IMG/VR virus record: IMGVR_UViG_3300036770_006519
Span: 1-50,558 of that record
Length of the DNA: 50,558 nt
Reading direction: 5' to 3' (one strand)
From: a virus
Part shown: positions 14,718 through 50,194 of the stretch, piece after piece
How the letters are laid out: each line of letters begins with the position of its first letter
How positions within the stretch are numbered: the stretch's first letter is position 1
Program-made: the position numbers and the translations under genes
Notes under the pieces: generated by a model
What the model saw: only the letters and a program-made list of their open reading frames with translations
The model's database searches: none
What the model was told of the DNA's origin: nothing

Positions 14718-14723
14718 CGATAT

Positions 14724-15503: not shown

Positions 15504-15526
15504 TTAATATATTAAAATAAAAAAAT

Positions 15527-15973: not shown

Positions 15974-15980
15974 AAAAACG

Positions 15981-16010
15981 TTGGCCTCTTAAAGAGGCTT
16001 TCGTATAATT
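15981..16010 (+). promoter_or_regulatory. Putative promoter with palindromic spacer
   Basis: TTG at 15981-15983 and TATAATT at 16004-16010 flank a 20-nt spacer containing GCCTCTTAAAGAGGC, a perfect 6-bp stem. The same hairpin recurs in the promoter at 32804; it may double as a terminator for the upstream gene. Confidence 0.6.
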
Positions 16011-16026
16011 TATCAAATTAAAAGTT

Positions 16027-16245: not shown

Positions 16246-16481
16246 CAAAAAAAGAAATACAACTTCTAGGTTTTGAAAAACAAACCTCCCCAGATAATGA
16301 TTTCTATTACTATACATTAGATATAGCAAACGGACTAAGCTTTATCTCAAGTGCTAACGATGAGGTTAAAAATGGTGAATGGTTTGTTGAGTTTTTTGAC
16401 ACGGATCCGGCTGTTAGATACACGAACTTTGCTGATCTTCAAGCTCTATTGAATAATCTTAAAAGACACGTATTAAAATGA
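16242..16481 (+). CDS. Hypothetical small protein
   Basis: 79 residues, not recognised. Alternating strands (FYYYTLDIANGLSFISSA, EWFVEFFDTDPAVRYTNF) followed by a helix (LQALLNNLKRHVL) suggest a compact alpha/beta unit common among small phage proteins. ATGA overlaps on both sides couple it to the flanking genes. Confidence 0.72.
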   Translation: MTKKEIQLLGFEKQTSPDNDFYYYTLDIANGLSFISSANDEVKNGEWFVEFFDTDPAVRYTNFADLQALLNNLKRHVLK

Positions 16482-17101: not shown

Positions 17102-17268
17102 GTAACGAGGTGTATACTGGCTTAGAAAAAGATAACTTTAACAATAAGGTTAAATATTTAGACTTAAAACTAAAACTTGATATTATCACAAGTTTAACTA
17201 ACTCATACCCAAATGATCAAGAGTTAGGAGCTAAAGTTAGAGAATTTGTTAAATTACAGAAGAAATGA
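17098..17268 (+). CDS. Hypothetical small protein between glycosyltransferases
   Basis: 56 residues (MSNEVYTGLEKDNFNNKV...), not recognised. Helical, charged, soluble; ATGA overlaps with both glycosyltransferase genes argue that it is real and co-translated. Confidence 0.6.
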   Translation: MSNEVYTGLEKDNFNNKVKYLDLKLKLDIITSLTNSYPNDQELGAKVREFVKLQKK

Positions 17269-18107
17269 TGAACCCATTGACATTTTGTATATCTACTTAT
17301 AATAATCTTCCATATTTAAAACTGGCTATTAAATCTGTTAGAAAAAATAGTTATTTTAAAGATGCTCCTTTTATTATCCATGCTGAAAATTGCACAGATG
17401 GGACTGATGAGTGGTTAAAGGAAAATCAAGATAAGTATAACCTAGAATATTATATAGATAAAAATGATGTACCTCTAGGGATTGGGGGTGGGATGAACTT
17501 TTGTGCAGATAAAGTAAAAACAGAGTTTATTAACTTTTTACATTCTGATTTTTATGTAACTAAAGATTGGGATAAAGCATTATTAGATATCCATGAAAAG
17601 TACCCAAATGAAAAATTATGGGTGAATTCATATAGAATAGAACCTAACATATTTAACTCCCCAGATAGATATGGAACATCTTTAATTCCATTGGATATGT
17701 TTGGAGCATACTATCATGATTTTGATAGTGCTTCATTTGAGAATTGGGTAGAAGAATTTAAACAAATGAATGAAGGTTATGAAATTCCTAAAGGTGAAGG
17801 TGTTTCCGGGTTAGTTAAAAAATCATTATGGGATGAAGTTGGAGGAAATGATCCATTATTTGCTCCTACATCTTGGGATGACCATGATTTATTTTTAAGA
17901 ATGTTACAACATAGTGTTCGTTTTATCCTACCTTCATCTTCAATAGTATGGCATTTTGGAGCTAGAGGAAGCCATAGATTAGAAGAAAATAACGGTCGAT
18001 CTTCAGATCGTCAAAGAAAAGCAGAAGCAGACAATGCTCAAAAATGGTTATCAAAATGGGGAAAAATGCCTCAATTTGATCAATATGGAATGATCAAACA
18101 ATTTTAA
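17265..18107 (+). CDS. GT2-family glycosyltransferase
   Basis: 280 residues, GT-A fold. TFCISTYNNLPYLKLAIKSV and PFIIHAENCTDGTDEWL at the N-terminus are the standard GT2 strand-helix and sugar-binding segments; EFINFLHSDFYVTKDW replaces the DxD with an H-S-D variant. The acceptor part includes GEGVSGLVKKSLWDEVGG and TSWDDHDLFLRML, where the E/W-D-D-x-D motif supplies the catalytic base, then a W-H-F-G-A-R-G-S-H motif. It resembles the enzyme at 26317 (I-F-H-A-D and Y-H-F-T-G-R-G-A-G), so the two are probably paralogs. Confidence 0.88.
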   Translation: MMNPLTFCISTYNNLPYLKLAIKSVRKNSYFKDAPFIIHAENCTDGTDEWLKENQDKYNLEYYIDKNDVPLGIGGGMNFCADKVKTEFINFLHSDFYVTKDWDKALLDIHEKYPNEKLWVNSYRIEPNIFNSPDRYGTSLIPLDMFGAYYHDFDSASFENWVEEFKQMNEGYEIPKGEGVSGLVKKSLWDEVGGNDPLFAPTSWDDHDLFLRMLQHSVRFILPSSSIVWHFGARGSHRLEENNGRSSDRQRKAEADNAQKWLSKWGKMPQFDQYGMIKQF

Positions 18108-18109
18108 AC

Positions 18110-19270
18110 ATGAGAAAAAAAATATTAATATATGCTTCTGATAATAGAGGATATATTGAAGTAAAGAATGTGGTTAATGAACTATCACAAAGAGATTGTG
18201 ACTATATTTTTGTTTACCCTACAGATGGTCAATTTGGATATGAATCAAATATAGATTACTTTACTTACCCTAATTTTGAATCTAAATCAGTTGGATTTCT
18301 ACTCCCATTCAAACCAGACATAGTTTTAATTACTAGAGAATCATGGTTACCTGAAACAAATATAATAATAGAATTTAAACAAATTGGGGCTATAGTATGT
18401 AATTTAGAAAATTCATCTTGGCTTTATAATAATATAAAAACTAGATTAGAAATTTTAAGTAGAATGAAATTTCCAACAAATATGATTGATGTTTTCTTTG
18501 ATCATAGTACATGGACATATCAATCTAAACTTGAAGCGGGTTGGATTAAAAGAAAATCTATTGTAACAGGTATCCCTAAATTTGACATTTTAAAAAATGT
18601 CCCAACAGAAACCATTCAACAGAAATATAACCTAACCAAACCAGTAATAGTTTTATATGGTTCAATGGAAGATAATATTAGACCAAACATTATTAATATT
18701 TCCAAAGAATTAGAAAGTAAATATGGTTCAACTCATCATTTATTCTATAAACCACACCCAAAAGAATTTACAGATTTTCCTAGTGATTTTACAGAAAATA
18801 ATCTCACCCCATCTCCACAATTTAGACTAATTAGAGATGAAAATGAAATGTATTCATTCTCCCAATTAGGAGATATTCATATTGGGGTTATTACATCAGT
18901 TATGTACTATCCATTATACTTCAATAAAACAGTATATTATGTTGACTCAGATGATAGTGGAGTTATGTTTGATATGGATTTAGAAAATTTTAAGGGAAAT
19001 GAATATAATTTTTGGGCTCCATTAATGAATGTTAATTCATGGGATGAATTTGTAGAAAAAATAGGAGAACATAGAATAGAAAAATTTAAAGATAGATACG
19101 ATTTGTTTATGAGTAAATTTAAAAATATTTTGAAACCGTATGAAGATGTCGTAGATTTAAATCAAAAATTCGAATATGACAATACGGCATTGCTAGAATT
19201 ATATGATGAATTCAATGATGGTAATGCATCCCAAAGAATAGCAAATTATTTAATAAACATATACAATTAA
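18110..19270 (+). CDS. GT-B glycosyl- or glycerophosphotransferase-like protein
   Basis: 386 residues. The N-terminal half has Rossmann strands (KKILIYASDNRGYIEVKNVV, KPDIVLITRESW), then TGIPKFDIL, and the C-terminal half VIVLYGSMEDNIRP...HHLFYKPHPKEF, followed by GDIHIGVITSVMYYPLYFNKTVYYVD. The Y-K-P-H-P motif and the S-x-x-x-x-P-L placement resemble the CDP-glycerol glycerophosphotransferase/polysialyltransferase-like GT-B group. Such enzymes transfer a polyol phosphate or sialic-type sugar; combined with the NeuB pathway beside it, a transferase using the CMP-activated sugar is possible. Tentative. Confidence 0.75.
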   Translation: MRKKILIYASDNRGYIEVKNVVNELSQRDCDYIFVYPTDGQFGYESNIDYFTYPNFESKSVGFLLPFKPDIVLITRESWLPETNIIIEFKQIGAIVCNLENSSWLYNNIKTRLEILSRMKFPTNMIDVFFDHSTWTYQSKLEAGWIKRKSIVTGIPKFDILKNVPTETIQQKYNLTKPVIVLYGSMEDNIRPNIINISKELESKYGSTHHLFYKPHPKEFTDFPSDFTENNLTPSPQFRLIRDENEMYSFSQLGDIHIGVITSVMYYPLYFNKTVYYVDSDDSGVMFDMDLENFKGNEYNFWAPLMNVNSWDEFVEKIGEHRIEKFKDRYDLFMSKFKNILKPYEDVVDLNQKFEYDNTALLELYDEFNDGNASQRIANYLINIYN

Positions 19271-19271
19271 C

Positions 19272-20282
19272 ATGGCTGATAATTTTAACAACAAAACAAT
19301 TTTGATTACAGGAGGTACTGGTTCTTTAGGTAGAGCTATTATCCAAAAATTAAAAAAATACAATTGTAAAATAATTGTATACAGTAGAGACGAAGGTAAA
19401 CAAGCATTATATTTCGGTCAAGACAAATCAATTATTCGAGTAATTGGCGATATAAGGGATTATGAACAATTATCTAAAACATTACGTTTATATAAACCAA
19501 ATTATGTTATCCATACTGCGGCTTTAAAACGAATTGATGATATGGAATATTACCCTGAAGAATGTGTTAAAACAAATATTCAAGGTTCTATTAATGTAGC
19601 TAATGCTTGTTTAGAAGCTATGGTTGATAAATGTATTTTAGTATCAACAGATAAAGCATGTATTCCTATTAATGTCTATGGAGCATCTAAATTTACCGCT
19701 GAACGTTTATTCTCCAATTTTGATCATAATTCAAACCACACCATTTTTAGTTCAGTACGATACGGAAATGTAATTGCAAGTAGAGGTTCATTTATTCCAT
19801 TATGGGTGGATTTATTATCTCAAGATAAAAACATTAATGTTACATCATTAGATTGCACCAGATTTTTATTTACATTAGAAGATGCAGTTAACACGGTTTT
19901 ATCTTCATTAATCAACAGTATTGGAGGAGAGGTATTTATTCCTTATTTTGATTCATTTGATATGGAAACTATTATTCAATCATTATCTCTTAAATTAGAT
20001 AAAAAAATTAAATATAAAGTTGTTGGAATGAGACCCGGGGAAAAATTTCATGAAGATATGATTGCTAAAACAGAATTACCTTTTACATACGAATCTAAAT
20101 TTTTAGATGGGTTTACAACAGAGCATTGTAATAGATTACTTTGTGTTATCCCACAATTTACAAATAAAGAATATCCCCTTAAAAAATATGATGGCCCTGA
20201 GTTCAACTCAGGGATTTTCTTAAATCATGATAAAGAATATTTAATTAAATTAATTGAAAAAGGATTACAAGATGCTAACTAG
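19272..20282 (+). CDS. UDP-sugar 4,6-dehydratase/5-epimerase (PseB/CapD-like SDR)
   Basis: 336 residues. Extended short-chain dehydrogenase: NAD(P)-binding TGGTGSLG (GxxGxxG) near 15-22, DIRDYEQL, HTAALKRIDDMEYYP (the A-A-L-K/H-V-P-like motif of PseB/FlaA1), STDKA, and the catalytic YGASKFTAER (Tyr-x3-Lys). Late in the protein, GMRPGEKFHEDM matches the conserved R-P-G-E-K-x-H-E of UDP-GlcNAc inverting 4,6-dehydratases. Predicted to make a 4-keto-6-deoxy sugar nucleotide, the first step of pseudaminic or legionaminic acid synthesis. The following aminotransferase gene overlaps its end. Confidence 0.93.
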   Translation: MADNFNNKTILITGGTGSLGRAIIQKLKKYNCKIIVYSRDEGKQALYFGQDKSIIRVIGDIRDYEQLSKTLRLYKPNYVIHTAALKRIDDMEYYPEECVKTNIQGSINVANACLEAMVDKCILVSTDKACIPINVYGASKFTAERLFSNFDHNSNHTIFSSVRYGNVIASRGSFIPLWVDLLSQDKNINVTSLDCTRFLFTLEDAVNTVLSSLINSIGGEVFIPYFDSFDMETIIQSLSLKLDKKIKYKVVGMRPGEKFHEDMIAKTELPFTYESKFLDGFTTEHCNRLLCVIPQFTNKEYPLKKYDGPEFNSGIFLNHDKEYLIKLIEKGLQDAN

Positions 20283-21549
20283 AAAAAAAATCAATGAAGA
20301 AGAACTCTGGGGGAATGCTCTTAGGTTAATGCCTAGAGGTACTCAAACGATGAGTAAATGTCCTGATCAATTTGTTGATGGGGTTTATCCTAAATTTGTA
20401 AAATCAGGAAAAGGAGCTTATTTGTATGGTTTAGATGGAAAAAAGTATCTTGATTACATGTGTGCTTTAGGTCCTATTATTTTAGGATATAATCACAAAT
20501 CAACAAATAAAGCCATTAAAAAACAACTTAAAGATGGAATCATATTTTCTTGGCCTACATTATTAGAACAAGAATTAGCCCAATTAATTTCAGATGTAGT
20601 CCCTTGTGCTGAACAAGTTAGATTCTGTAAGAATGGTACTGATGCTGATTTGGCTGCTGTTCGAATTGCTCGCTCATATACTGGTAAAGAAAAAATCCTT
20701 AAACCAGCAGGTGGTTATCATGGTTGGGGAGATTGGCATGCTATTTCAATGAGACCATATGGAGTACCATCTTGTTTAAAAGAATTAATTGGTGAATTCG
20801 AATATAATAATCTTGAAAGTTTAGAGAAATTACTTGAAAAAGGAGACGTTGCGGGTGTTATTATTGAACCCCAAGCCTTAACCACCCCTAAACCAGGATT
20901 TTTAGAAGGTGTTAGAAAATTATGTACTAAATATAAAGCCGTACTTATTTTTGATGAAGTAGTAACTGGGTTTAGATGGAGTTTAGGTGGGGCTCAAGAA
21001 TATTTTGGAGTTACCCCTGATTTATGTTGTATGGGAAAAGCAGTAGCTAACGGGATGCCTTTAGGTATTATTGCTGGTAAAGCAGAATACATGAATGAAT
21101 TGAATCATGCTTTCTTCTCAATGACATTTGGTGGTGAAGCATTATCTATAGCAGCTGCTATTGCTACTGTTAAAGAATTACAAACTAAAGATTATAATCA
21201 TATTTGGGAACTTGGAAATATGTTGGATGTTGGTATTAAAAATGCAGCCAAAAAACATAATTTAGATGTAATATTTGCTGGAGATGCCCCAAGACATAAC
21301 CTAACATTTAACCCAGAAACGTATGAAGATGCAGATGGGTTAAAATATTTATTTTATCAAGAAATGGTAAAACAAAATATATTATTTCCGAATGTTATTT
21401 ATATCAATTTTTCACATACGAAGAAAGATATTCAAAAAACAATTGATGCTGCTGATAAAGCTTTTGAGTTTGTGAGTAAAAATATAAATAATATTGATTC
21501 TGCATTAGAAGGTAAACGTGGTACTGCAATCTTTAGAAAAAATAGCTAA
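20272..21549 (+). CDS. Class III PLP aminotransferase/aminomutase-like (HemL-type)
   Basis: I begin at ATG 20272 (MLTRKKINEEELW), overlapping the dehydratase by 11 nt. The ~425 residues match glutamate-1-semialdehyde aminomutase/class III enzymes: LMPRGTQTMSKCPDQF, GAYLYGLDGKKYLDYMCALGPIILGYNH, VRFCKNGTDADLAAVRIARSYTGK, GGYHGWGDWH, IFDEVVTGFRW (Asp contacting PLP nitrogen), then GKAVANGMPLGIIAGKAE, with the PLP lysine in GKAVANG, and FFSMTFGGEALSIAAA. Standard nonulosonate pathways use DegT-type aminotransferases, so a HemL-type enzyme here is unusual; it probably aminates the keto sugar. Confidence 0.9.
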   Translation: MLTRKKINEEELWGNALRLMPRGTQTMSKCPDQFVDGVYPKFVKSGKGAYLYGLDGKKYLDYMCALGPIILGYNHKSTNKAIKKQLKDGIIFSWPTLLEQELAQLISDVVPCAEQVRFCKNGTDADLAAVRIARSYTGKEKILKPAGGYHGWGDWHAISMRPYGVPSCLKELIGEFEYNNLESLEKLLEKGDVAGVIIEPQALTTPKPGFLEGVRKLCTKYKAVLIFDEVVTGFRWSLGGAQEYFGVTPDLCCMGKAVANGMPLGIIAGKAEYMNELNHAFFSMTFGGEALSIAAAIATVKELQTKDYNHIWELGNMLDVGIKNAAKKHNLDVIFAGDAPRHNLTFNPETYEDADGLKYLFYQEMVKQNILFPNVIYINFSHTKKDIQKTIDAADKAFEFVSKNINNIDSALEGKRGTAIFRKNS

Positions 21550-22238
21550 TGAAAAACATTAAAGACACCGTTTTTATAATTCAAGCTCGAACACAATCAA
21601 CCCGTGTTCCAAATAAAATGCTTAGACCATTTGCTCACTCAAGTTTATTTGAAATAACAATTGAGAAAGTACTCCAATCATCAATCATCCCAAAAGATAA
21701 CTTTTATCTTTCAGTTATGGATGATGAATTGATTGAAATTGCTAGAAAACATAATGTAAATTATTTTGTTCGAAGTGAGGAATCAACTCAAGAACCCGTT
21801 ACATTACAAAAAGCCCTAGAATGGCATGATAAACTTCCATTCAAACACTTTGTAATCATTAATGCTTGTAACCCACTATTAAAAGTAGAAACAATAGATA
21901 ATTTTGTTAAGCAATTTTTAGAGGTAGATTCAAATGGTTTATTTGGAGTATTTGAGAAAAAAACATTTTTATTTGATAATGAAGGTAAAATGTTAAATCG
22001 TTTCTTTGGAGAAGATAAATACTTAGCTACATTAGAGACTAAGTTTGTTGAAACCTGTTATGAAGCAGCCCATTCATTGTACGCGGGATCTACAGAAGAT
22101 ATTGCAAACGGAATTTATATGGGAACTTTTAAAGAACCAGGCAATCCTAATTTCTTTGTAATGGAAGAAATTGAATGTTTTGATATTGATTGGCCTTGGC
22201 AATTTGAAGTAGCAGAAAAATTATACTTAAACAAATGA
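21549..22238 (+). CDS. Cytidylyltransferase (SpsF/NeuA/PseF-like)
   Basis: 229 residues. The N-terminal VFIIQARTQSTRVPNKMLRPF is the nucleotide-binding signature of CMP-sugar synthetases (R-x-x-S-x-R-x-x-x-K). Further segments: LSVMDDELIEIARKHNV, FVRSEESTQEPVTLQKAL, FVIINACNPLLKVETID (NACNP replaces the usual D-x-x-P), and FDIDWPWQFEVAEKL at the C-terminus, the D-I-D-x-x-x-D-x-x-x-A motif of the family. Predicted to activate a nine-carbon or similar sugar acid with CMP. It overlaps neighbours by 1 and 4 nt. Confidence 0.9.
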   Translation: MKNIKDTVFIIQARTQSTRVPNKMLRPFAHSSLFEITIEKVLQSSIIPKDNFYLSVMDDELIEIARKHNVNYFVRSEESTQEPVTLQKALEWHDKLPFKHFVIINACNPLLKVETIDNFVKQFLEVDSNGLFGVFEKKTFLFDNEGKMLNRFFGEDKYLATLETKFVETCYEAAHSLYAGSTEDIANGIYMGTFKEPGNPNFFVMEEIECFDIDWPWQFEVAEKLYLNK

Positions 22239-23044
22239 AAGCAATTATAATAGGAGGAGGCTCAATTGGAAAAAGACATTCTACTAATTTGAATAATCTA
22301 GGAATCCAAACTAAAATAGTTGATATAGATGAAATTGATAATATAGATGATATATTGCAAGAAGGTTTTGATTTAGGTTTTGTTTGTTCTCCAAATATAA
22401 AACATATAGAACATTGTATTAAGTTAGCTCAATATAATATCCCTATATTTTGTGAAAAACCATTCTATTCGTCAAATGAAGGGGTTGAAGAATTATTAAA
22501 TATAATTAAAAAAAAAGATTTAACCACAATGGTGGGATGTAATCTACGATTTACAGACGAAGTAAAATCAATTAATCCAAATTCAAAATATATTAACGTT
22601 TACTTTGGGTATGATTTAAAAAAATGGAGATCACAAACTGATCACTTAAAATCGTATAGTGCTAATAAGCATTTGGGAGGTGGAGTACTTTTAGATGTTA
22701 TACATGAATTGGATTATCTTTATTCTAAATTTGGAGATATAAAAAATATTTCGTATATTAAAAATAAGTTAACAAATATAACAAATGATACTGAAGATTT
22801 AGTTATTGGTAGAATAGAGTTTCAAAATGGAACTATAGCTGATTTTACTTTAAACTATCTTTCAGAAGAATACCATCGTTATTTTGATATTTTAGAAGGG
22901 GATATATTACGTAGAGTACATTTTGAAATAAAAAATGATATGTATGTTGAAGAAATAAAGTATTTTGTTAATTGCGTTAAAAATAATGCACATTGTATAA
23001 ATAGTTTTGAAGAAGCAAATAAGTTATTAAAATATTTAATATGA
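22235..23044 (+). CDS. Gfo/Idh/MocA-family oxidoreductase
   Basis: 269 residues. N-terminal Rossmann: AIIIGGGSIGKRHSTNL (GxGxxGxRH), then DLGFVCSPNIKHIEHCIKLAQYNIPIFCEKPF with the conserved E-K-P motif. The C-terminal domain holds GGGVLLDVIHELDYLYSKFG, the catalytic His-containing D-x-x-x-H-x-x-D motif. NAD(P)-dependent oxidation or reduction of a sugar or sugar nucleotide is expected. Shorter than typical members (~330), with a reduced beta-sheet domain. It sits between the cytidylyltransferase and the synthase, so its substrate is likely an intermediate of the same sugar. Confidence 0.9.
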   Translation: MKAIIIGGGSIGKRHSTNLNNLGIQTKIVDIDEIDNIDDILQEGFDLGFVCSPNIKHIEHCIKLAQYNIPIFCEKPFYSSNEGVEELLNIIKKKDLTTMVGCNLRFTDEVKSINPNSKYINVYFGYDLKKWRSQTDHLKSYSANKHLGGGVLLDVIHELDYLYSKFGDIKNISYIKNKLTNITNDTEDLVIGRIEFQNGTIADFTLNYLSEEYHRYFDILEGDILRRVHFEIKNDMYVEEIKYFVNCVKNNAHCINSFEEANKLLKYLI

Positions 23045-24018
23045 ACACATTTGTAATAGCAGAAGCAGGAGCTAATCATAATAAAAATTTTAAACAAGCA
23101 CTATCATTAATTGATGTTGCTTTAGAAGCTGGAGCATCTGCTTGTAAATTTCAAACATATTCATCAAATACTTTATATAGTAAAAACACTCCTGATTTTG
23201 CTGGTTATAAAGATATTAATAAACTAATTGATGATATTGCCTTACCACGTGAATGGCAAAAAGATTTAAAACAATACTGTGATGAAAAAGGTATTGAATT
23301 TATGTCAACACCATTTGATGAAAAAGCAGTTGATGAATTAGTTGCCCTAGGTGTTAAACGTCTCAAAATAGCAGGATTCGAATCAACCGACTTCAGATTT
23401 GTTGATATGGTTGCCTCAGCTAAATTACCTTTAGTTATTTCTTTAGGTATTGGGTTTGAAATGAATTACTTAGGTAAAATATTTGAAATAGCAGACAAAT
23501 ACGGAAATGATTTAACTTTAATGCATTGTAATAATGCTTATCCTACCCCAATGCAAGATGCTGGATTAAAAATAGTTCAATCATTATCTTTAGACTCTAG
23601 ATATAAAACCGGATTCTCAGATCATACTATGTCTACTTTAACTCCTGCTTTAGCTGTAGCTATGGGAGCAACAGTAATTGAAAAACATTTTACTCTAAGC
23701 AGACATTTACCAGGCCCTGATCATCCATTTGCTTTGGAACCTAATCAATTAAAAGAAATGATTGATTTAATTAAACAAGCAGAATTAACCATTACTCCCC
23801 AACTTAACCAATACTCCGAATCAGAACAATCATTCAAACAAGCAATGCGTTCAGTAGTAGCTAAAACTGATATTAAGAAAGGGGATATATTAACTGAGGA
23901 TAATATTACAACTAAACGACCATTTTTAGAAGGAAATATACCTGCAAAACATTTTGAATTTACTTTAGGTAAAACAGCAGATAGAGATTATAATGAAGAC
24001 GATTTTATATGCAATTAA
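23041..24018 (+). CDS. NeuB-type nonulosonic acid synthase (with SAF domain)
   Basis: 325 residues. The N-terminal TIM barrel shows FVIAEAGANHNKN (NeuB signature with metal-binding residues), CKFQTYSSNTLY, FMSTPFDEKAVDEL, KIAGFESTDFRFVD, MHCNNAYPTP, GFSDHTMSTLTPALAVAMGATVIEKHFTLSRHLPGPDHPFALEP; then a C-terminal SAF/antifreeze-like domain (RSVVAKTDIKKGDILTEDNITTKRP). Known chemistry: condensation of PEP with a 6-carbon amino sugar to give a sialic, legionaminic or pseudaminic acid. Which sugar cannot be told from sequence alone. Overlaps the GNAT gene by 10 nt. Confidence 0.95.
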   Translation: MNTFVIAEAGANHNKNFKQALSLIDVALEAGASACKFQTYSSNTLYSKNTPDFAGYKDINKLIDDIALPREWQKDLKQYCDEKGIEFMSTPFDEKAVDELVALGVKRLKIAGFESTDFRFVDMVASAKLPLVISLGIGFEMNYLGKIFEIADKYGNDLTLMHCNNAYPTPMQDAGLKIVQSLSLDSRYKTGFSDHTMSTLTPALAVAMGATVIEKHFTLSRHLPGPDHPFALEPNQLKEMIDLIKQAELTITPQLNQYSESEQSFKQAMRSVVAKTDIKKGDILTEDNITTKRPFLEGNIPAKHFEFTLGKTADRDYNEDDFICN

Positions 24019-24428
24019 GAAAATCAACACATAACGATTGGAAAATTCTCCTAGATTGGAGAAATGATCCTACAACTAGAGAAAATTCATTTGAAACAGG
24101 AGAAGTATCTGAACAAACTCATAAATTATGGTTCAACGATAGTTTACTCAATCCATATAGAGAAATTTATATCCTAGAAGATAATAACATTCCTGTAGGA
24201 TCTATTAGATCAGATAATGTAGCAACTAACAAATATATTTTATCATGGAGTATTGCTCCCAATCAAAGGGGAAATGGTTATGGAACTAAAATTCTTGAAT
24301 TATTTTTAAAAGATAAAACAGGTAATTTTATAGCTGAAATTAAACCTGAAAATATAGCTTCAATTAAAATGGTCCAAAAGAATGGATTCAATCAATTAGA
24401 TGAAATAAAATACATTAAACAACAATAA
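24009..24428 (+). CDS. GNAT N-acetyltransferase (PseH-like)
   Basis: 139 residues. The N-terminal LRKSTHNDWKILLDWRNDPTTRENSF matches PseH/RimJ-like acetyltransferases acting on amino sugars; LSWSIAPNQRGNGYGTKILELFL holds the acetyl-CoA-binding motif (Q-R-G-N-G-Y-G); NIASIKMVQKNGFNQL is the C-terminal N-x-x-S...N-G-F motif. Predicted to acetylate the amino group introduced by the aminotransferase at 20272. Its place at the end of the sugar operon fits the pathway. Confidence 0.9.
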   Translation: MQLRKSTHNDWKILLDWRNDPTTRENSFETGEVSEQTHKLWFNDSLLNPYREIYILEDNNIPVGSIRSDNVATNKYILSWSIAPNQRGNGYGTKILELFLKDKTGNFIAEIKPENIASIKMVQKNGFNQLDEIKYIKQQ

Positions 24429-24429
24429 T

Positions 24430-24615
24430 ATGACTGATTTAGAAATTATTGATGAAATCCAGAAAGTAAGAGGTAAAAACAATGTAAATTGGATGGACAT
24501 TTTACGTATAGCATTCACTCATGCTCCTGAAGAAACAAGAGAAGTATTTAAGAGAATTACTAATGATGATAATCTTATAAATGAATTATCTAAAAAATTA
24601 GCTAATAATAAATGA
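24430..24615 (+). CDS. Hypothetical small helical protein in sugar island
   Basis: 61 residues, three predicted helices (DLEIIDEIQKVR, NWMDILRIAFTHAPEETREVFKRI, NLINELSKKLAN). Not certain, but the layout resembles small proteins in nonulosonate clusters that accompany the acetyltransferase. Soluble, acidic; ATGA overlap with the next gene. Confidence 0.7.
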   Translation: MTDLEIIDEIQKVRGKNNVNWMDILRIAFTHAPEETREVFKRITNDDNLINELSKKLANNK

Positions 24616-25472
24616 GTTATATAAATGATAATTGGAAAGGTATAGCAAAAGGTCATACGGCGTTTTGTATTTTAGGAGGTCCTTCAACTAACCAAGTTAA
24701 AGACATCCAAGATATTATTTCTAATAACTTTACCATTACTGTAAACCATAATATTAAAACATATCCAAATTGTGATATGTATATTACTGCTGATAATTCA
24801 ATTGCAAGAGAATACTTTGAAGATAAAGAATTTTGTTTATTTAAATTTACTGGTGGGAAATTACTTAGAAATCAAGCAGGATTTAATTATGATTCTGAAC
24901 CAATTTGGATACAAGGTAAAAAAGAAATTATACAACAAAATCCTAACTTAATTAAAGTTATTGCTTGTAATGAATTTCCAATTTATAATTATTCATTTAC
25001 AACAGGTCAATTACCCAAACATCATGGAGAAGAATATTGCAAATCAACACCTAACACCCACCTTTGTATCGAATATAGAAATGAACAAGGTGAATCTTAT
25101 CCCCCATTAAGCCCAGACATCCCAGAAAGTATTATTGGATATGGCACTAATCCACTCCAATTAATCCCTGGCGGTAATGTATCTGGTATTTTATTTCAAT
25201 TACTTTGGTTTATGGGATTTGATAAAGTAATAGTAGTTGGATATGGTGATAATGGTATATCAAATGGTTATGATGGAAAAACATTTGAATGGAGTAATGA
25301 AGAAATCCATGCTATGGTAACTCATAATACCATTTGGAAAGATAAACTTACCTCACTCCATGGTTCAGAAATATGTAAAGAATATTGTGATTTCAAACAA
25401 TCAACATATGATGATTTAGAAATTACACCTTTTAAAAAACAACAATTAATTAATAAACTAATCAAATTATGA
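24612..25472 (+). CDS. DUF115/MAF-like glycosyltransferase
   Basis: 286 residues. KGHTAFCILGGPSTNQVKDIQ carries the G-G-P-S loop of MAF/DUF115 (MptE-like) and related sialyltransferase-like folds; TVNHNIKTYPNCDMYITADN follows, then GGNVSGILFQLLWFMGFDKVIVVGYGDNG. In flagellated bacteria MAF proteins attach pseudaminic or legionaminic acid to flagellin from the CMP sugar; here it lies directly after a nonulosonate-type pathway, so it is a good candidate for the final transferase. The acceptor might be a virion protein or host glycan. Assignment is from pattern and context. Confidence 0.7.
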   Translation: MSYINDNWKGIAKGHTAFCILGGPSTNQVKDIQDIISNNFTITVNHNIKTYPNCDMYITADNSIAREYFEDKEFCLFKFTGGKLLRNQAGFNYDSEPIWIQGKKEIIQQNPNLIKVIACNEFPIYNYSFTTGQLPKHHGEEYCKSTPNTHLCIEYRNEQGESYPPLSPDIPESIIGYGTNPLQLIPGGNVSGILFQLLWFMGFDKVIVVGYGDNGISNGYDGKTFEWSNEEIHAMVTHNTIWKDKLTSLHGSEICKEYCDFKQSTYDDLEITPFKKQQLINKLIKL

Positions 25473-26320
25473 AAAAATTTCTTCTTTTACTCCATATATT
25501 CCCTAGAGAAATAGATGATTTTGATAATATTGCTTCCCAATTAAAAGTAGCATCTAAATATACCTCAGATAACATGTTGATAGATACTCATATTGTTTTA
25601 AATCTTAACACTGAAATTATTGATTGGGATAAAAGTATTCTTTCTAAAGATTTTATTTTAGATAAATTTAATCATATACTAACTAAATTTGATTGGACTA
25701 ATGAAAATAAAATTGAAATAAATCACACAGACAAATATTGGGGTATTGTTGATCAAAGAGTATACTTACAAACATTAACAGATCAATATGATGGATTTAT
25801 TTTATTAGATCTAGATGTAATATTTAATGATTATATTTTTTATTATTTACAAGAAACGCTTGAACATGTAAAAGAAGATTTATACATTATATCCCCACAA
25901 GTTTATAAATTTTGGGACCAATCATGGGATTCTTTAAGTTATTTACCTTACGATGGGACTGATGTAAATGCAGTTGATCCTTTTATAGTAAAAGCAATCA
26001 ATCAAGAAGTTGAATTAATTCAAAATAAAAATATAAAGTTTGCAGGTGGTTGGTTTACTACTATAAGTTCTAAATTAATATCCCAAATTCAATTCCCATC
26101 AGATGTTAAAGGGTATGGATTAGAAGATACATTTATAGCAGAATCATCCAAAAAATTAAATGCTACCCAATATATTATGAAGGGTATCACTATACAAGAA
26201 AATAGAAAATATTTAAATAATCCCATTTATGTAAATTATATTAAATATAATTCTGAAAAATTAACTCAAATTAATAATGATACTAAACATATATTTAATT
26301 TAGCCCTCCAATCATTATGA
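25469..26320 (+). CDS. GT-A glycosyltransferase-like protein
   Basis: 283 residues. The central YDGFILLDLDVIFND is a D-x-D metal/nucleotide-sugar motif in the GT-A context; KFAGGWFTTISSKLISQIQFP and VKGYGLEDTFIAESSKKL follow, the latter being the E-D acceptor/base motif of GT2/GT27-type enzymes. The N-terminus KKFLLLLHIFPREIDDFDNIASQL is a Rossmann-like strand. Not close to the two obvious GT2 paralogs at 17265 and 26317. Substrate unknown. Confidence 0.75.
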   Translation: MKKFLLLLHIFPREIDDFDNIASQLKVASKYTSDNMLIDTHIVLNLNTEIIDWDKSILSKDFILDKFNHILTKFDWTNENKIEINHTDKYWGIVDQRVYLQTLTDQYDGFILLDLDVIFNDYIFYYLQETLEHVKEDLYIISPQVYKFWDQSWDSLSYLPYDGTDVNAVDPFIVKAINQEVELIQNKNIKFAGGWFTTISSKLISQIQFPSDVKGYGLEDTFIAESSKKLNATQYIMKGITIQENRKYLNNPIYVNYIKYNSEKLTQINNDTKHIFNLALQSL

Positions 26321-27381
26321 AACAAATAACCTTTTGCATCCCAAGTAAATCAAACTTAAGATACCTTAAAACTTGTATCCCCTCAATTAGAGAAAATGCA
26401 TCCCGAAAAGACCATGAAATTATAATATTCGTTGATTCTGATGAAGATGGGACGGTAGAGTGGTTAGAACAAGTAAAAGATGAATATAATTTAAAGTACT
26501 TTGTAAATCCAAATTTGGGTAAAAGTTTATTTGGAATTGGAAAAGCATATGACTATTGTATTGAACATTCAACCACAGACATATTCATGATATTCCATGC
26601 TGATATGATTTTGGCCCCAAATGCTGATTATGAGTTGTATAAACACTTGAAAGAAAAAACAGTAGTATGTGCAACTCGTATTGAACCACCTTTACATCCA
26701 AATAACGGAGAAAAAATATTAGAAGATTTTGGGGTGTACCCTGAAGAATTTAAAGAGGATGAATTTAACAAATATGTTAAAGAATATAACCCAACAATCC
26801 CAACCACAGAAGGTATATTTGCACCTTGGATGATGTACAAAAAAGAATATTTGGAAATACTAGGTGGACATGATCCAATCCTTCACTCTTGTAGAGAAGA
26901 TTCTGATATTTTTAATAGGATGGATTTAGCTGGGTTTGGATTTGTCCAAACATGGAGTGGGTTTGTTTATCATTTTACGGGTAGAGGAGCAGGTTCATTT
27001 GATGGAGATGAGCAAAGACATAAAAAATGGAAGGAAGATATGGATAAATCAACTATTGCTTTCATTAAAAAATGGGGTACAAATGTTCAACATACTAATA
27101 TGATGAAACCCATTGTATCACCTGTTTATAAAAAAACCTATAAGTTAGTTAACCCAAACCCTCAACTAAAACAAGCTCTAGAACCATGGTTTAATGAGGG
27201 GAAGGATATAATAGTAGAGATAGATGGAAACAAATTCTCACAACAAGATTTTCAAATAATTCAACAGCTAAATGCTATAATCAAAGATAGTGGAGAAATA
27301 GGAGAATTTGAATTAGGAAATTTAAAAATAACAATAAACTCACTAACAGAATATCAAAAAGATCTCATAAAACTTTCCTAA
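26317..27381 (+). CDS. GT2-family glycosyltransferase with C-terminal extension
   Basis: 354 residues. N-terminal GT-A features: TFCIPSKSNLRYLKTCIPSI, EIIIFVDSDEDGTVEWL (D-S-D), IFMIFHADMILAPN (H-A-D in place of D-x-D), and EILGGHDPILHSCREDSDIFNRM (E-D-S-D base motif). A C-terminal extension of ~90 residues (KLVNPNPQLKQALEPWFNEG...) is shared by none of the other GTs here and may be a partner-binding domain. Last gene of the sugar island; no hairpin follows, only a C-rich stretch at 27382. Confidence 0.87.
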   Translation: MKQITFCIPSKSNLRYLKTCIPSIRENASRKDHEIIIFVDSDEDGTVEWLEQVKDEYNLKYFVNPNLGKSLFGIGKAYDYCIEHSTTDIFMIFHADMILAPNADYELYKHLKEKTVVCATRIEPPLHPNNGEKILEDFGVYPEEFKEDEFNKYVKEYNPTIPTTEGIFAPWMMYKKEYLEILGGHDPILHSCREDSDIFNRMDLAGFGFVQTWSGFVYHFTGRGAGSFDGDEQRHKKWKEDMDKSTIAFIKKWGTNVQHTNMMKPIVSPVYKKTYKLVNPNPQLKQALEPWFNEGKDIIVEIDGNKFSQQDFQIIQQLNAIIKDSGEIGEFELGNLKITINSLTEYQKDLIKLS

Positions 27382-40972: not shown

Positions 40973-41770
40973 ATGAAGATTCTTGAAATTTTTACAGAAA
41001 AATTAAGATACAAAAATTATTCACCTCGAACAATTGATGTGTATAAATCATATCTTAAGACTTTTCTACAACATAACAACATAAAAGACCCATACCAAAT
41101 TACAACAAATCAGATTGTTAAGTTTTTGGAATCATATAACTTCACATCCACCTCTCAACAAAATCAATATATTGGATGTTTGAAATTATTTGCTAAATAT
41201 GTCCTGAATAAGAAAGATGTACACCTATCCAAAGTAGAACGACCCAGGAATGAAAAGAAACTACCTAGAGTTATTGATAGCGAATTTATCAAATCCCAAC
41301 TTAACAAAATCAAAAATTTAAAACACAAAACAATCCTTACCCTAACATTTTCAGTTGGACTCCGTGTTTCCGAAATAGTTAATCTTAAAATAGAAGATAT
41401 TGATTCTAAGCGAATGTTAATCCATATTAAAAATGCCAAAGGAAGAAAAGATAGAATAGTACCATTATCACAAACAGTACTAGAAATGTTGAGAAAATAT
41501 TTTTTAGAATATAAACCAAAAGAGTATTTATTCAATGGTCAAAAGGGAAGAAAATATTCTGTAGGGAGTTGTCAAAAAATGTATAAACGTTATATTGATC
41601 CAAACTCATCTATTCATACTCTAAGACATTCTAGTTTTACTAATCTTTTGGAAAATGGAACAGATCTAAGAATTATCCAAAAAATTGCAGGTCATTCCTC
41701 CTCCAAAACAACAGAGATTTATACACACGTTTCAAATCAACTTTTAAACAAAGTTAATCTTCCCATTTGA
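40973..41770 (+). CDS. Tyrosine recombinase (Xer-like) next to cassette array
   Basis: 265 residues with an N-terminal SAM-like core-binding domain (EIFTEKLRYKNYSPRTIDVYKSYLKTFL) and a catalytic domain holding all key residues: R131 (VGLRVSE), K156 (NAKGRKDR), H215/R218 (HTLRH), H241 (AGHSS) and nucleophile Y250 (EIYTHVS). The T-T-E-I-Y-T-H-V-S end resembles integron integrases, but the protein lacks the extra helix-containing insertion between patches II and III that defines IntI, and at 265 residues it is shorter than IntI (~320-340). It is the best candidate for the enzyme acting on the attC-like sites, or alternatively for phage genome recombination. Confidence 0.93.
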   Translation: MKILEIFTEKLRYKNYSPRTIDVYKSYLKTFLQHNNIKDPYQITTNQIVKFLESYNFTSTSQQNQYIGCLKLFAKYVLNKKDVHLSKVERPRNEKKLPRVIDSEFIKSQLNKIKNLKHKTILTLTFSVGLRVSEIVNLKIEDIDSKRMLIHIKNAKGRKDRIVPLSQTVLEMLRKYFLEYKPKEYLFNGQKGRKYSVGSCQKMYKRYIDPNSSIHTLRHSSFTNLLENGTDLRIIQKIAGHSSSKTTEIYTHVSNQLLNKVNLPI

Positions 41771-45850: not shown

Positions 45851-46522
45851 ATGGTAGGAATATATAAAATTACAAACCCAAAAGGTAAAGTTTATATTGG
45901 GCAAAGTATTAATATTGAACGAAGATTTAAAGAATATAAAAGATTAGCCAAACGCTCAGCTGGAAGGAAAATTTTAAATTCATTAAAAGGGTATGGTGTA
46001 GAAAACCATACATTTGAAGTTATTGAAGAATGCTTAAAAGAACAACTACATGAAAGAGAATACTATTGGAAAAAATATTACACCTCAGTAGAAGATGGTT
46101 TAAATTGTGATTATTTTGATAGTAGTGGAGGACCTAGGAGTGAAGAAACAAAACAGAGAATTTCTGAAGGGGCCAAAGGTAAAAAACGCTCTGAAGAAAC
46201 AAAACAAAAACTTAGAAAACCTAAAACAGAAGAACATAAACAAAATATAAGTAAAGCTAAACAAAATATCTCTGAAGAAACTAAACGTAAAATATCCGAA
46301 GGGAAAAAAGGAAAAACACCTAATAGAGATTATAAAACATGGGCTAAACAGCAACAGAAACCCATTTTACAATATGATTTAGAAGGTAATTTTATTAAAG
46401 AATGGGAGGGTACAAAAGTAGCAGCTGCATATCTTGGATGTGACCCAACTACTATAACAGCTAATTTAAGAGGAATAACAAAAAAAGGATACGGTTATAT
46501 ATGGAAAAGAAAAACAATTTAG
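45851..46522 (+). CDS. GIY-YIG homing endonuclease upstream of thymidylate synthase
   Basis: 223 residues. VGIYKITNPKGKVYIGQSINIERR gives the canonical GIY-x10-YIG with catalytic Arg; the acidic helix is LHEREYYWKKYYTSVEDGLN. Four NUMOD3 repeats (SEETKQRISEGAKGKK, SEETKQKLRKPK, TEEHKQNISKAKQN, SEETKRKISEGKKGK) and a NUMOD1-like tail (ILQYDLEGNFIKEWEG...GYGYIWKRKTI). Start ATG 45851; the ATG four bases earlier (45847) is out of frame. Its last 22 nt overlap thyA, placing the nuclease beside the gene that T4's I-TevI also exploits. Confidence 0.94.
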   Translation: MVGIYKITNPKGKVYIGQSINIERRFKEYKRLAKRSAGRKILNSLKGYGVENHTFEVIEECLKEQLHEREYYWKKYYTSVEDGLNCDYFDSSGGPRSEETKQRISEGAKGKKRSEETKQKLRKPKTEEHKQNISKAKQNISEETKRKISEGKKGKTPNRDYKTWAKQQQKPILQYDLEGNFIKEWEGTKVAAAYLGCDPTTITANLRGITKKGYGYIWKRKTI

Positions 46523-47742
46523 ATCCCCAATATAATAAATTATTAGAGGATATTTTAGAAAACGGAACTAAAAAACAAACCAGAAACGGAGAAGTAATTT
46601 CAGTATTTGGAAGACAGATTCGACACAAGATGTCAGACGGTTTTCCACTTTTAACATGTAAACGAATGCCATTCCGTCTTATAGCAACAGAATTGTTATG
46701 GTTCCTACATGGTGATACAAATATCAAATACCTTGTTGATAATGATTGTCATATTTGGGATGGTGATGCTTATAAGAACTATTGTAAAAGTCACACTTCA
46801 CCCCCATCTAATACAGGTGGACCGCTATTGAGTGATAATCTTATCTCAGTTAGACCGATACAATACACACAAGAAGAGTTCATCAACAAAATCAAAACAG
46901 ATGCAGAGTTCGCAAAGAAGTGGGGTGATTTAGGTCCTGTGTATGGTAAACAATGGAGAAGTTGGGGAAGACGGAATGTAATAAATTATGACCTAAAGGA
47001 TGTAAAAGGTTCTGACCAGCCTAAAGTACTTGAAGCAATTAACAATGGTGAGGATGTTACCAAATATGGCGTTAAGATAGAATATCAAAATAATTCTTTA
47101 GACCAAATCAAAAACCTAATCAACGACCTTAAAACAAACCCAGACTCAAGACGACTAATGGTTAATGCTTGGAATGTAGGTGAATTAGATCAAATGGTGT
47201 TACCACCTTGTCATTATGGTTTTCAAGTTTATACTAGAGAGTTGAGTTTGGAAGAAAGGTCACAATATAGAAGAGGAAACAAAGAAACATACCCTGTCTC
47301 TAAATGGAGAGATGATATGGGGATATCAAAAGAAGAATACTTTAATCAAATCGGAATCCCAACCAGAGCAATTTCTCTAATGTGGAATCAACGTTCAGTA
47401 GATACATTCTTAGGTTTACCATTCAACATTGCATCTTACGGCTTGTTATTAGAAATCATAGCAAAAGAAGTTAATATGGTTCCTGATGAATTGATTGGGA
47501 ATTTAGGTGATGTTCATTTGTATTTGAATCATATTGAACAAGCAAAGGAACAAATGACGAGAGAACCATATCCACTACCTAAACTAAGTTTTGGATGGTT
47601 TATTGAAAGTTGGACAACTGAAAACGCAAAAGAAGTGAGGAAAGAATCATTTGATGCTTACATTAGACAAATGAAGCCTTCTGATTTTACAATCGAAAAC
47701 TATCAATCACACCCAACAATTAAAGCACTTTTATCGAATTAA
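46501..47742 (+). CDS. thyA: Thymidylate synthase (ThyA type)
   Basis: 413 residues, much longer than T4 Td (286) or E. coli ThyA (264). Conserved parts: RQIRHKMSDGFPLLTCKRMPFR, ATELLWFLHGDTNIKYL, GDLGPVYGKQWRSWG, the active site VLPPCHYGFQVY (Cys near 237), SRRLMVNAWN, LMWNQRSVDTFLGLPFNIASY, and GDVHLYLNHIEQA. Insertions around residues 95-130, 165-195 and 250-285 explain the length. It converts dUMP to dTMP with methylene-THF for phage DNA synthesis. The start codon lies inside the tail of the upstream homing endonuclease. Confidence 0.96.
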   Translation: MEKKNNLDPQYNKLLEDILENGTKKQTRNGEVISVFGRQIRHKMSDGFPLLTCKRMPFRLIATELLWFLHGDTNIKYLVDNDCHIWDGDAYKNYCKSHTSPPSNTGGPLLSDNLISVRPIQYTQEEFINKIKTDAEFAKKWGDLGPVYGKQWRSWGRRNVINYDLKDVKGSDQPKVLEAINNGEDVTKYGVKIEYQNNSLDQIKNLINDLKTNPDSRRLMVNAWNVGELDQMVLPPCHYGFQVYTRELSLEERSQYRRGNKETYPVSKWRDDMGISKEEYFNQIGIPTRAISLMWNQRSVDTFLGLPFNIASYGLLLEIIAKEVNMVPDELIGNLGDVHLYLNHIEQAKEQMTREPYPLPKLSFGWFIESWTTENAKEVRKESFDAYIRQMKPSDFTIENYQSHPTIKALLSN

Positions 47743-47744: not shown

Positions 47745-47759
47745 ATATTTATTAATATG
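47745..47759 (+). promoter_or_regulatory. ATATTTATTAATATG element (variant late-type motif)
   Basis: A variant of the recurrent element running directly into the ATG at 47757 of a secreted-protein gene. Confidence 0.3.
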
Positions 47760-48338
47760 AAATGGTTATTGACATTACTTACACTATTACATGGAATTGC
47801 ATATTCTCAATGTAATGGAACCCAGTCATTCACACTAACCCCACCTCCAATTGCAAACCAATACTCACCAGGCCAAACGGTAACAATGTGTTTTACTATG
47901 AATGGATATTCTCAAGTTGGGAGCAATTGGTTTGAGGGATTTGATTTGACACTAGGTTCTGGTTGGGCAAGTGTGCAACCTGCATCAGCTCCTGCTAATT
48001 GTGGAGGAAATGCATCTGGTGGTCAATGGATATGGTTAAATTCAGTGAATACACCCGTAGGTGTAGTTGGACCAGGATATTTCTTTGACTTAGACTTAGA
48101 TGGTCAGACTGGTGATGATTTTGGCGATTCAGGATCCTGCACATGGACTTTTTGCGTAACACTTACAGTAGCACAAGGATGCACTCCTCAAAGTTTGGCA
48201 ATAGCTGTAACACCAGGTTCAGATGGACTATGGGGGAGTTGGAATAGCACTAGTTGCGATGGAGCAACACCATTTCAAGTATTTAACGGAACTATTAACC
48301 CACAGCTTCCTAGCATAGGAGCTATATTACACAATTAA
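47757..48338 (+). CDS. Secreted flavobacterial-type protein, possible adhesin
   Basis: 193 residues. Signal peptide MKWLLTLLTLLHGIAYSQ with cleavage expected at YSQ-C. The mature part is Ser/Thr/Gly-rich and beta-sheet-like (TFTLTPPPIANQYSPGQTVTMCFTMNGY, GWASVQPASAPANCGG) with eight or so cysteines. Such domains are common in gliding-motility-type extracellular proteins of Bacteroidota. It ends in AILHN, almost the same as the end of the next protein (PISHN). Predicted to be exported to the host envelope, or to be a virion surface protein. Confidence 0.78.
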   Translation: MKWLLTLLTLLHGIAYSQCNGTQSFTLTPPPIANQYSPGQTVTMCFTMNGYSQVGSNWFEGFDLTLGSGWASVQPASAPANCGGNASGGQWIWLNSVNTPVGVVGPGYFFDLDLDGQTGDDFGDSGSCTWTFCVTLTVAQGCTPQSLAIAVTPGSDGLWGSWNSTSCDGATPFQVFNGTINPQLPSIGAILHN

Positions 48339-48342
48339 TAAT

Positions 48343-48906
48343 ATGAAAAAGTTACTATTATCTTTAAGTCTTTTAACAAGCACATTTGCTTTCACACAGC
48401 TAACCACTATTAACCCTGATACGGTATGTTACCAAACCCCCGGATCTATTTATCAAGTTACCAATACTCCGGGTACCACCTACACATGGACTGTAGCAGC
48501 ACCTGGTACAATCACATCGGGGCAAGGAACCAATCAGATTGGAGTTGATTGGTCGAATGCAGCACCAGGCCTGATACCAAATGGTGTAAGTGTTGTAGCA
48601 TCAAATGGTACAGGATGTGATTCTCCACCTTCAACATTGGATGTGTTCATATTGCTAGTTAACCCTACAATAACAGCATTGGGACCTTTCTGTGATACAG
48701 ATGCTTGTGTTCCCGTTACTACAACTCCAGCTGGTGGTGTTCTAACTGGTACGGGTGTAGTAGGAAATACTTTTTGTCCTCAAACAGCAGGACCTGGTAC
48801 ATTTACATTAACATATACATTTACTCAAGGAGGATGTACATTCACAACAACTACCACAGTCACTGTTAATCCAACACCAACCTTATCACCAATATCGCAT
48901 AACTAA
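48343..48906 (+). CDS. Secreted PKD-like domain protein
   Basis: 187 residues. Signal peptide MKKLLLSLSLLTSTFAFTQ. The mature chain has PKD/Ig-like features (CYQTPGSIYQVTNTPGTTYTWTVAAPGTITSGQG, then TITALGPFCDTDACVPVTTTPAGGVLTGTGV, and GTFTLTYTFTQGGCTF), of the kind repeated in SprB-like gliding adhesins and other T9SS cargo of flavobacteria. No sorting domain of its own; that is supplied by the next gene. Overlaps it by 1 nt. Confidence 0.8.
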   Translation: MKKLLLSLSLLTSTFAFTQLTTINPDTVCYQTPGSIYQVTNTPGTTYTWTVAAPGTITSGQGTNQIGVDWSNAAPGLIPNGVSVVASNGTGCDSPPSTLDVFILLVNPTITALGPFCDTDACVPVTTTPAGGVLTGTGVVGNTFCPQTAGPGTFTLTYTFTQGGCTFTTTTTVTVNPTPTLSPISHN

Positions 48907-49469
48907 TGAGGTTGTTTCTATTCATATTATTATGTTGCAATGTTGCACTATCGCAACAATCCATAACCATATGCAATGATGAACCACAAACCTTTCTGTA
49001 CTCTGCAGAGTCTAGTGAAGGTGGAGAAACAGAATGGCAAGTTGATGGACAGTACTATTATGGAAATCCTGTAGCCATTACTTGGTTAGATACCGGAGTA
49101 TTCACAATCACAGCAATTCATTATGCTTTGAATTGTCCTAGCGAACCAGTAACATATGTTGTAACTGTTACCGAATGTGATCCTTTAATTTATTATGTTC
49201 CAAATTCATTCACACCAGATAAGGATGAAGTAAACAATAGTTGGGGGCCGGTTTTTACTTCTGGATTTGATCCTCAAGATTTTCATCTGTTAATATTTAA
49301 CCGATGGGGAGAAATTGTATGGGAATCTTTTGATCACACAGTACAATGGGATGGAACATATGCAGGCAGAATCTGTCAAAATGGAACATATACTTGGGTA
49401 ATTTGGTTTGGAGACAAATACACAGATGCTCGATACAAAGAAATAGGCCACGTAACAATCATTAAATAA
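48906..49469 (+). CDS. Secreted protein with gliding-motility/T9SS type B C-terminal domain (CHU_C)
   Basis: 187 residues. Signal peptide MRLFLFILLCCNVALSQ. The second half is a clear CHU_C/type B sorting domain: IYYVPNSFTPDKDEVNNSWGPVF, FHLLIFNRWGEIVWESFD, VQWDGTYAGRICQNGTYTWVIWF, followed by YKEIGHVTIIK. In flavobacteria this domain sends proteins through T9SS and links them to the surface. A phage gene with it, after two other secreted proteins, suggests three parts of one exported assembly. Confidence 0.9.
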   Translation: MRLFLFILLCCNVALSQQSITICNDEPQTFLYSAESSEGGETEWQVDGQYYYGNPVAITWLDTGVFTITAIHYALNCPSEPVTYVVTVTECDPLIYYVPNSFTPDKDEVNNSWGPVFTSGFDPQDFHLLIFNRWGEIVWESFDHTVQWDGTYAGRICQNGTYTWVIWFGDKYTDARYKEIGHVTIIK

Positions 49470-49477: not shown

Positions 49478-50194
49478 ATGGAAACAACCCAACTAGAATG
49501 GTCAGGTTATAAATGGATAACAAATGAAAGATGGGGACAATGGGATGCCTCTAATCCTAGATTTTGGATGGATCCATCCGCTGTCTCAATCCACAAAGGC
49601 ACACTTCATTTAACTACTCACCTCAATAAAAAAACATTCACCACCCCAACCGGAGAAACATACACTGCAACACATGGTATGGGAACAGTATCATGTTTGG
49701 AAAAGTTTGGATATGGTGAATTTGAAATAGAAGCTAGACTACCCTATGGATCCTATAATTGGCCAGCGTTTTGGATGTGGAGTTGGGATTCTTGGCCACC
49801 TGAAATAGATATATTTGAGGGGTATTCTAACAAGAATGGTTCATACTTTAACTGGGCTGATTTTCTTTTGGGGAAAATTTGGAGAGTGGAGAGCAATATT
49901 CATCTCGGAAAGCATCCATACAACTATAGCATTGGGGCTGAAAGTGCAAGATGGGGGTGGAAAAATCCTCACAAACATTTTATAAAGTATTCTTTGTTGT
50001 GGACACCAGATGTAATTGAAATTAAATGGGATGGGAAAGTGGTAAGAAAGATTACAGATAAAAGTATATTAGCCCAATTTGAAAATACAAAAATGAATGT
50101 TTTGATAAACAATTGGTTGCAAAAAGATTTACCTTTAAACCACCACCAACCTAGTTTAATGCAAGTTAAATATTTTAAATACAAACAGTTATGA
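49478..50194 (+). CDS. Glycoside hydrolase family 16 enzyme
   Basis: 238 residues. FGYGEFEIEARLPYGSYNWPAFWMWSWDSWPPEIDIFE contains the GH16 catalytic motif E-I-D-I-F-E (E109 nucleophile, D111, E114 acid/base). WRVESNIHLGKHPYN and YSLLWTPDVIEIKWDGKVVRKI complete the beta-sandwich. GH16 enzymes cleave beta-1,3/1,4-glucans, agars, carrageenans and similar polymers. There is no signal peptide, so it would act in the cytoplasm, at lysis, or as part of the virion. It follows the T9SS genes after 8 nt and may degrade the host's capsular or algal-derived glycan. Confidence 0.9.
   Translation: METTQLEWSGYKWITNERWGQWDASNPRFWMDPSAVSIHKGTLHLTTHLNKKTFTTPTGETYTATHGMGTVSCLEKFGYGEFEIEARLPYGSYNWPAFWMWSWDSWPPEIDIFEGYSNKNGSYFNWADFLLGKIWRVESNIHLGKHPYNYSIGAESARWGWKNPHKHFIKYSLLWTPDVIEIKWDGKVVRKITDKSILAQFENTKMNVLINNWLQKDLPLNHHQPSLMQVKYFKYKQL

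Follow-up and report, generated by a model that had tools for sequence, protein, structure and literature searches.

Why should a virus carry, one behind the other, three short genes for apparently secreted proteins, the last of which ends in a gliding-motility domain? The question is raised by an IMG/VR virus record whose 50,558 bases are the window analysed here. Within it, three consecutive plus-strand open reading frames, which we call A, B and C, encode proteins of 193, 187 and 187 aa; the start of C overlaps the stop of B (TAATG), a thymidylate synthase gene (46501-47742) lies upstream of A, and a relative of glycoside hydrolase 16 (49478-50194) lies downstream of C. A preliminary description of the locus saw in these genes one host adhesin split in three. 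Our own reading is that A, B and C probably represent a single phage T9SS type B adhesin, cut at two linkers into subunits that are exported, rejoined through their tails and held at the surface. The features on which the argument draws are these:

47757..48338, + strand: gene A (193 aa), the 'head' slot; signal peptide and Ig-like domain, ends GAILHN
47757..47807, + strand: signal peptide of A, residues 1-17, cleavage before Gln18 (from sequence; Q18 invariant in 24/24)
48318..48335, + strand: C-terminal tail GAILHN of A, the cut linker between head and B
48343..48906, + strand: gene B (187 aa); signal peptide, PKD_6 and a second Ig-like domain, ends SPISHN
48343..48396, + strand: signal peptide of B, residues 1-18, cleavage before Gln19 (from sequence; Q19 invariant in 20/20)
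48406..48627, + strand: PKD_6 domain of B (Pfam PF19408, E=2e-11)
48886..48903, + strand: C-terminal tail SPISHN of B, the cut linker between B and C
48906..49469, + strand: gene C (187 aa); signal peptide, PKD-like domain and T9SS type B C-terminal domain
48906..48953, + strand: signal peptide of C, residues 1-16, cleavage before Gln17 (from sequence)
49197..49448, + strand: CHU_C / TIGR04131 type B sorting domain of C

All three N-termini are built as signal peptides: M[K/R], a hydrophobic stretch and an A-x-[S/T] site ahead of Gln (AYS, AFT and ALS, each followed by Q). In family alignments, Gln at or adjacent to the expected +1 position is invariant, in 24/24 sequences of A, 20/20 of B and 20/20 of C; a Gln in that place is what the Bacteroidetes 'Q-rule' describes for substrates of signal peptidase I (PMC5837995). 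These assignments were made from sequence features, family alignments and a home-made hydrophobicity rule, by which the window's C lies above threshold and A and B just below it. As all three pieces have retained such a signal peptide, with Gln in the +1 position, we strongly infer Sec export of A, B and C, in agreement with the signal peptides that the preliminary description had assigned to each.

The same description had called the second protein PKD-like and given the third a type B sorting domain, and both assignments were borne out by profile searches. B matches PKD_6 (PF19408) with 44.5 bits against a gathering cut-off of 25, while C exceeds the cut-offs of both CHU_C (50.3 bits; cut-off 27) and TIGR04131 (39.8 bits; cut-off 35), a domain that is C-terminal in every copy of C. 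Alignment of the C family reveals conserved FTP[DN], NRWG, W[DN]G and Y, and an end of the form G-x-[VIL]-x-[LIV]-x-[RK]; according to PMC12618676, type B substrates need five conserved motifs within their last 100 residues for secretion. A and B match none of PF13585, PF18962, TIGR04131 and TIGR04183, and thus have no known T9SS C-terminal domain. For A there is no Pfam, NCBIfam or PHROG family match at all, and SprB repeats (PF13573) are absent from the window's A, B and C. The AF2 model of B comprises two Ig-like domains (pLDDT 90), with the tail as an extended, exposed end without a strand. The model of A (pLDDT 70) is all-beta, a beta-sandwich, and a PDB fold search with this model of moderate confidence yielded weak pilin/adhesin-like Ig folds, none below E=0.001. 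A match of A to iota-carbonic anhydrase spans 47 residues and was set aside as too short to use.

A-B-C recurs in constant order in about 70 distinct viral contigs, the longest of 436 kb and nearly all of them metagenome fragments. Matched viral loci number 35 for A, more than 130 for B and about 390 for C; removal of near-copies left 72 distinct B proteins, and our counts are of distinct sequences rather than independent events. Across the roughly 70 contigs the pieces are 25-70% identical at the protein level, each with its own conserved start, signal peptide and stop, and the TAATG overlap of B and C is found in 47 of 66 copies. C is present in 29 of 30 contigs, one per contig, and three contigs carry a second, fused CHU_C protein. 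Single members have already been deposited, from uncultured Caudovirales phages, as 'PKD-like domain-containing protein' or 'Gliding motility-associated, C-terminal domain'. Our literature search found no description of a split phage adhesin, and a term search for CHU_C in phages was swamped by unrelated matches.

The clue to how the three genes belong together lies in how the first two end. Among the 72 distinct B proteins, 70 end IxHN and two IxHD, and the protein directly upstream of B ends [IV]xHN in 67 of 70 cases. CAT/CAC and AAT/AAC are used freely to encode these two residues, a third-base variation which indicates that selection acts on the protein. In a background sample of 1,206 genes of at least 100 aa, from six large related contigs (123-296 kb), HN ends are confined to cassette-type secreted proteins and one unrelated cytosolic gene; this rules out HN as a general feature of these phages, and the shared (I)xHN end to which the preliminary description had drawn attention is not a product of chance. 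Both cut ends are under selection to finish in HN. An intein or Asn-cyclisation reading of HN was rejected, since A and B have no Hint/intein Pfam match and a stop codon follows HN. Internal IxHN in host adhesins, a possible origin, is almost absent from 82,000 residues of long frames, and a pattern search of phage proteins for an N-terminal 'ITESQL' motif gave almost nothing.

The residues ahead of HN depend on the slot. Tails in the A slot follow the consensus PxIVLG[PNA]IxHN on heads that are unrelated to one another (Gly-rich, SprB-repeat, A-like and beta-propeller-like), and those in the B slot follow a different one, P-x-L-[ST]-P-I-Q-HN; that residues specific to a slot are common to unrelated heads points to slot-specific partners. 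At one locus (L416) the A-slot and B-slot tails have both changed to HD. Alternative occupants of the A slot include a 349-aa Gly-rich protein, a 262-aa protein with an SprB repeat, a 322-aa protein, proteins of 425-428 aa, and one of 632 aa that weakly matches a T9SS-associated galactose-binding-like domain. Additional HN-ended proteins with PKD or propeller-like folds occur in some phages.

Fused versions, for which the preliminary description had proposed a search, reveal what the tails once were. In one myovirus lineage the gene order is sheath, sheath, tube, A, B, C, terminator, baseplate hub and tape measure, and the site between tail tube and terminator holds, in related myoviruses, either A-B-C or a single protein of 730-820 aa; between split and fused carriers the tube is 80-83% and the terminator 59-82% identical. 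The single protein has a signal peptide, a different head, SprB repeats, PKD_6 and CHU_C, and profile mapping identifies its last ~340 residues as B then C. At the linker between head and B, the fused form reads VLGPINGTDTIC, with VLGPIN continuing into GTDTIC, whereas the split form has VLGPIN and then the HN end; at the linker between B and C, P-T-I-T-P-I-T-PYN-EFFELC of the fused form stands against P-T-L-S-P-I-Q-HN and the end of the chain. As aligned, the split tails are the cut interdomain linkers of the fused form. Wherever the sequence ahead of a split C gene could be read, in 74 cases, the protein encoded there ends IxH[ND]; ahead of 25 fused C genes no such ending occurs. HN is thus restricted to places where the chain has been cut, and it marks both cuts. 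Comparison of the two forms thereby establishes, at the level of sequence, their common descent, the conserved order and coupling of the pieces, and the HN tails at both cuts. In the tree of C, fused phage copies are interspersed among split ones on long branches; the tree accords with either direction of change, and with a single splitting event as well as with later re-fusion.

The fused phage type B adhesins (L405 3063-5522; LR745206 26.. kb, 732 aa; G006 119544-121766) thus share with A-B-C the signal peptide, homologous regions of B followed by C, and the CHU_C end; they also occupy the tail-operon site at which close relatives have the split form. They differ in being one chain, with a different head, continuous linkers and no IxHN. 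In three related phages (G007, G003 and G002) sheath, tube and hub are present and the cassette is tens of kilobases away, about 70 kb from the tail genes in G007 and about 50 kb in G003, with nothing between tube and hub. Together with its position beside thymidylate synthase in the window, this makes the tail-operon site one of several genome positions taken up by A-B-C, a unit that travels together.

Fused versions exist in hosts as well. Of 399 Flavobacteriales genomes, 61 contain the A domain, nearly always as part of a long adhesin-like open frame; in five MAGs (L113-L117) it is N-terminal in CHU_C proteins of ~1330 aa with Ig-like repeats, which thereby resemble the cassette in their A-like N-terminal domain, Ig/PKD repeats and CHU_C end. 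A 400-aa protein that unites B and C is encoded on a host contig longer than 630 kb (L246 1369-2571, in G032:C1). Unlike the cassette, all of these host adhesins are fused and lack IxHN. In the L246 protein, B-like and C-like domains are followed by a type A (Por_Secre_tail) sorting domain in place of type B, a sorting-domain swap on an unchanged scaffold.

The B signature PDTVCYQ occurs in one of 399 Flavobacteriales genomes and in none of 395 Bacteroidota genomes. Its carrier, G144:C101 (L275, 3340-7117), encodes a 927-aa protein with CUB, PKD and P domains that ends ITHN; B comes next, where the contig stops. The neighbouring 781-aa gene, 81-85% identical in five relatives, identifies this as a host locus, and hence split adhesins do exist, rarely, in host chromosomes; this one perhaps sits on a mobile island. 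The site beside the conserved 781-aa gene is empty in three Flavobacteriales relatives, and in two (G034:C138/L364 and G250:C150/L360) another secreted protein starts there before the contig breaks. The site is also of interest in itself, as a chromosomal hot spot in a Flavobacteriales family. Over the sequences compared, head, B and C taken together form a phage lineage rather than a recent copy of one host gene. The preliminary view of one host adhesin in three parts is supported as to the split adhesin; as to its belonging to the host, it is not supported as worded.

How does the cassette compare with known T9SS cargo? According to PMC12618676 and PMC9143113, type B domains need and bind PorP/SprF-like proteins. 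T9SS export requires a C-terminal domain and a shuttle (PMC12618676); PorP-like barrels serve to hold type B proteins (PMC9143113). With type B substrates and gliding adhesins such as SprB of Flavobacterium johnsoniae (PMC9143113, PMC12618676), the cassette shares the Sec signal peptide, Ig/PKD modules and, in C, CHU_C/TIGR04131 at the extreme C-terminus; the likeness to SprB extends to SprB repeats in some A-slot heads (L099) and in fused relatives. Unlike SprB-type adhesins, the cassette is phage-encoded and distributes one adhesin among three chains, with A and B lacking any T9SS domain and ending in IxHN. A linked PorP/SprF-like gene was found in none of 30 viral contigs, by a search in which control genomes were equally silent. 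Such a linked shuttle gene is frequent for type B substrates, but not obligatory. The sole sequence match of C to a solved structure is GhpA of Aureispira (PDB 9flp), the C-terminal end of which matches C residues 83-171 (E=7e-5); GhpA is a 5898-aa cellular predation protein, and its kinship with C is confined to the C-terminal domain.

We propose that the A slot would supply an exchangeable head, B an Ig-like spacer, and C the base with its secretion and anchoring domain. As remnants of covalent links, the tails are natural docking elements, and would rejoin head, B and C where the linker formerly ran. Since A and B have no T9SS domain of their own, and passage through the T9SS depends on such a domain and a shuttle, they would reach the surface by docking to C, leaving the host as riders on its C-terminal domain. 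A host protein of the PorP/SprF type would then hold the complex on the surface, and the phage would depend on the host's T9SS and shuttles. Once displayed, the adhesin may alter what the infected cell sticks to, or which phages adsorb to it; the mimicry of host adhesins and blocking of phage receptors suggested in the preliminary description would be possible roles of this kind. The tail-operon copies suggest that the cassette is expressed late, and late expression would fit a part in release or spread no less well than it fits the exclusion of other phages. A more specific version, which we put forward tentatively, treats IxHN as a C-terminal assembly code, in which slot-specific tails click exchangeable heads and a spacer onto a base bearing the T9SS signal, such that signal-less passengers are exported preassembled. 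If true, this would be the first multi-subunit, mix-and-match T9SS cargo, which phages would have evolved, or at least amplified, and would share with the host locus of G144.

Several other explanations deserve consideration. A, B and C could be three independent exported proteins derived from one adhesin, with HN as a stability feature, for instance against periplasmic tail-specific proteases. A short tail that is extended and strandless in the model of B, with a polar end befitting an exposed terminus, would suit such a role; many polar ends would do, however, yet His-Asn (rarely His-Asp) is nearly fixed, and the slot-specific residues before it are common to unrelated heads, so that we think this account rather unlikely. 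A virion component is a distinctly unlikely alternative, in which A, B, C or the fused protein would be tail fibres or decorations that bind surfaces or an SprF-type barrel in adsorption. One myovirus lineage always has the cassette or the fused gene between the tail tube and the terminator or baseplate hub, Ig-like domains are frequent on phage virions, and the unrelated folds nearest to B are tail and capsid proteins. Against these points, Sec signal peptides with an invariant +1 Gln on all pieces make no sense for cytoplasmic assembly, the related phages G007 and G003 keep their tail genes far from the cassette, and no PHROG structural family is matched by A or C, or significantly by B (E=0.7). 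The preliminary description had held that virion fibres assembled in the cytoplasm would tell against its reading; the retained signal peptides and the distance from tail genes in relatives point away from them.

Composed of a signal peptide, one PKD-like domain and CHU_C, C might instead be a minimal type B domain that fills the host's SprF/PorP shuttles and strips the surface of gliding adhesins and phage receptors, as a form of superinfection exclusion with A and B as accessories. Type B substrates do require cognate PorP/SprF shuttles (PMC12618676), but the strict retention and diversification of A-slot heads, and the tails, would be left unexplained, and the late tail-operon position fits a late role better than exclusion; we consider such a competitor improbable. 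That three adjacent frames stand where relatives have one could also signal a broken adhesin, pseudogenised or frameshifted. This is scarcely tenable, and is refuted by the conservation of all three pieces, each with its start, signal peptide and stop, over about 70 divergent contigs.

Should the split adhesin be rejoined and displayed as proposed, widespread uncultured viruses of Bacteroidota would dress the infected host with an adhesin by way of the host's own T9SS, in three parts with an exchangeable head and joined by a two-residue signature. Such a self-assembling split form of a known class of surface protein looks to be new. It would provide a natural system for studying T9SS export of complexes and type B substrate recognition, and would bear on the roles of late phage genes at the Bacteroidota cell surface. 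Because one site holds split alleles in some phages and fused ones in others, the question of linker and tail is directly testable.

The remainder of the window offers several observations in their own right. The GH16-like protein directly after C (49478-50194) has no evident signal peptide, and a 44% relative of it sits upstream of A at another locus (L007). The thymidylate synthase (46501-47742) is 413 aa long, against 266 positions in the Pfam family, and is preceded by a GIY-YIG/NUMOD homing endonuclease gene (45851-46522). Between 44217 and 45567, a 21-base element, TTAAACCAAAACAAAGATGAG, occurs in four exact copies across gene junctions. It gives several unrelated small proteins the ending LNQNKDE and contains the start codon of the gene that follows; it looks like a repeated translation-start element. 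A sugar or surface-glycan block at 10273-27381 comprises glycosyltransferases, a nucleotide-sugar epimerase, an aminotransferase and a weak GtrB-like match. Elsewhere the window encodes a phage GroEL (1079-2725), a close relative of the tail-terminator-like protein from the tail-operon group (8248-8619) and a tyrosine integrase (40973-41770).
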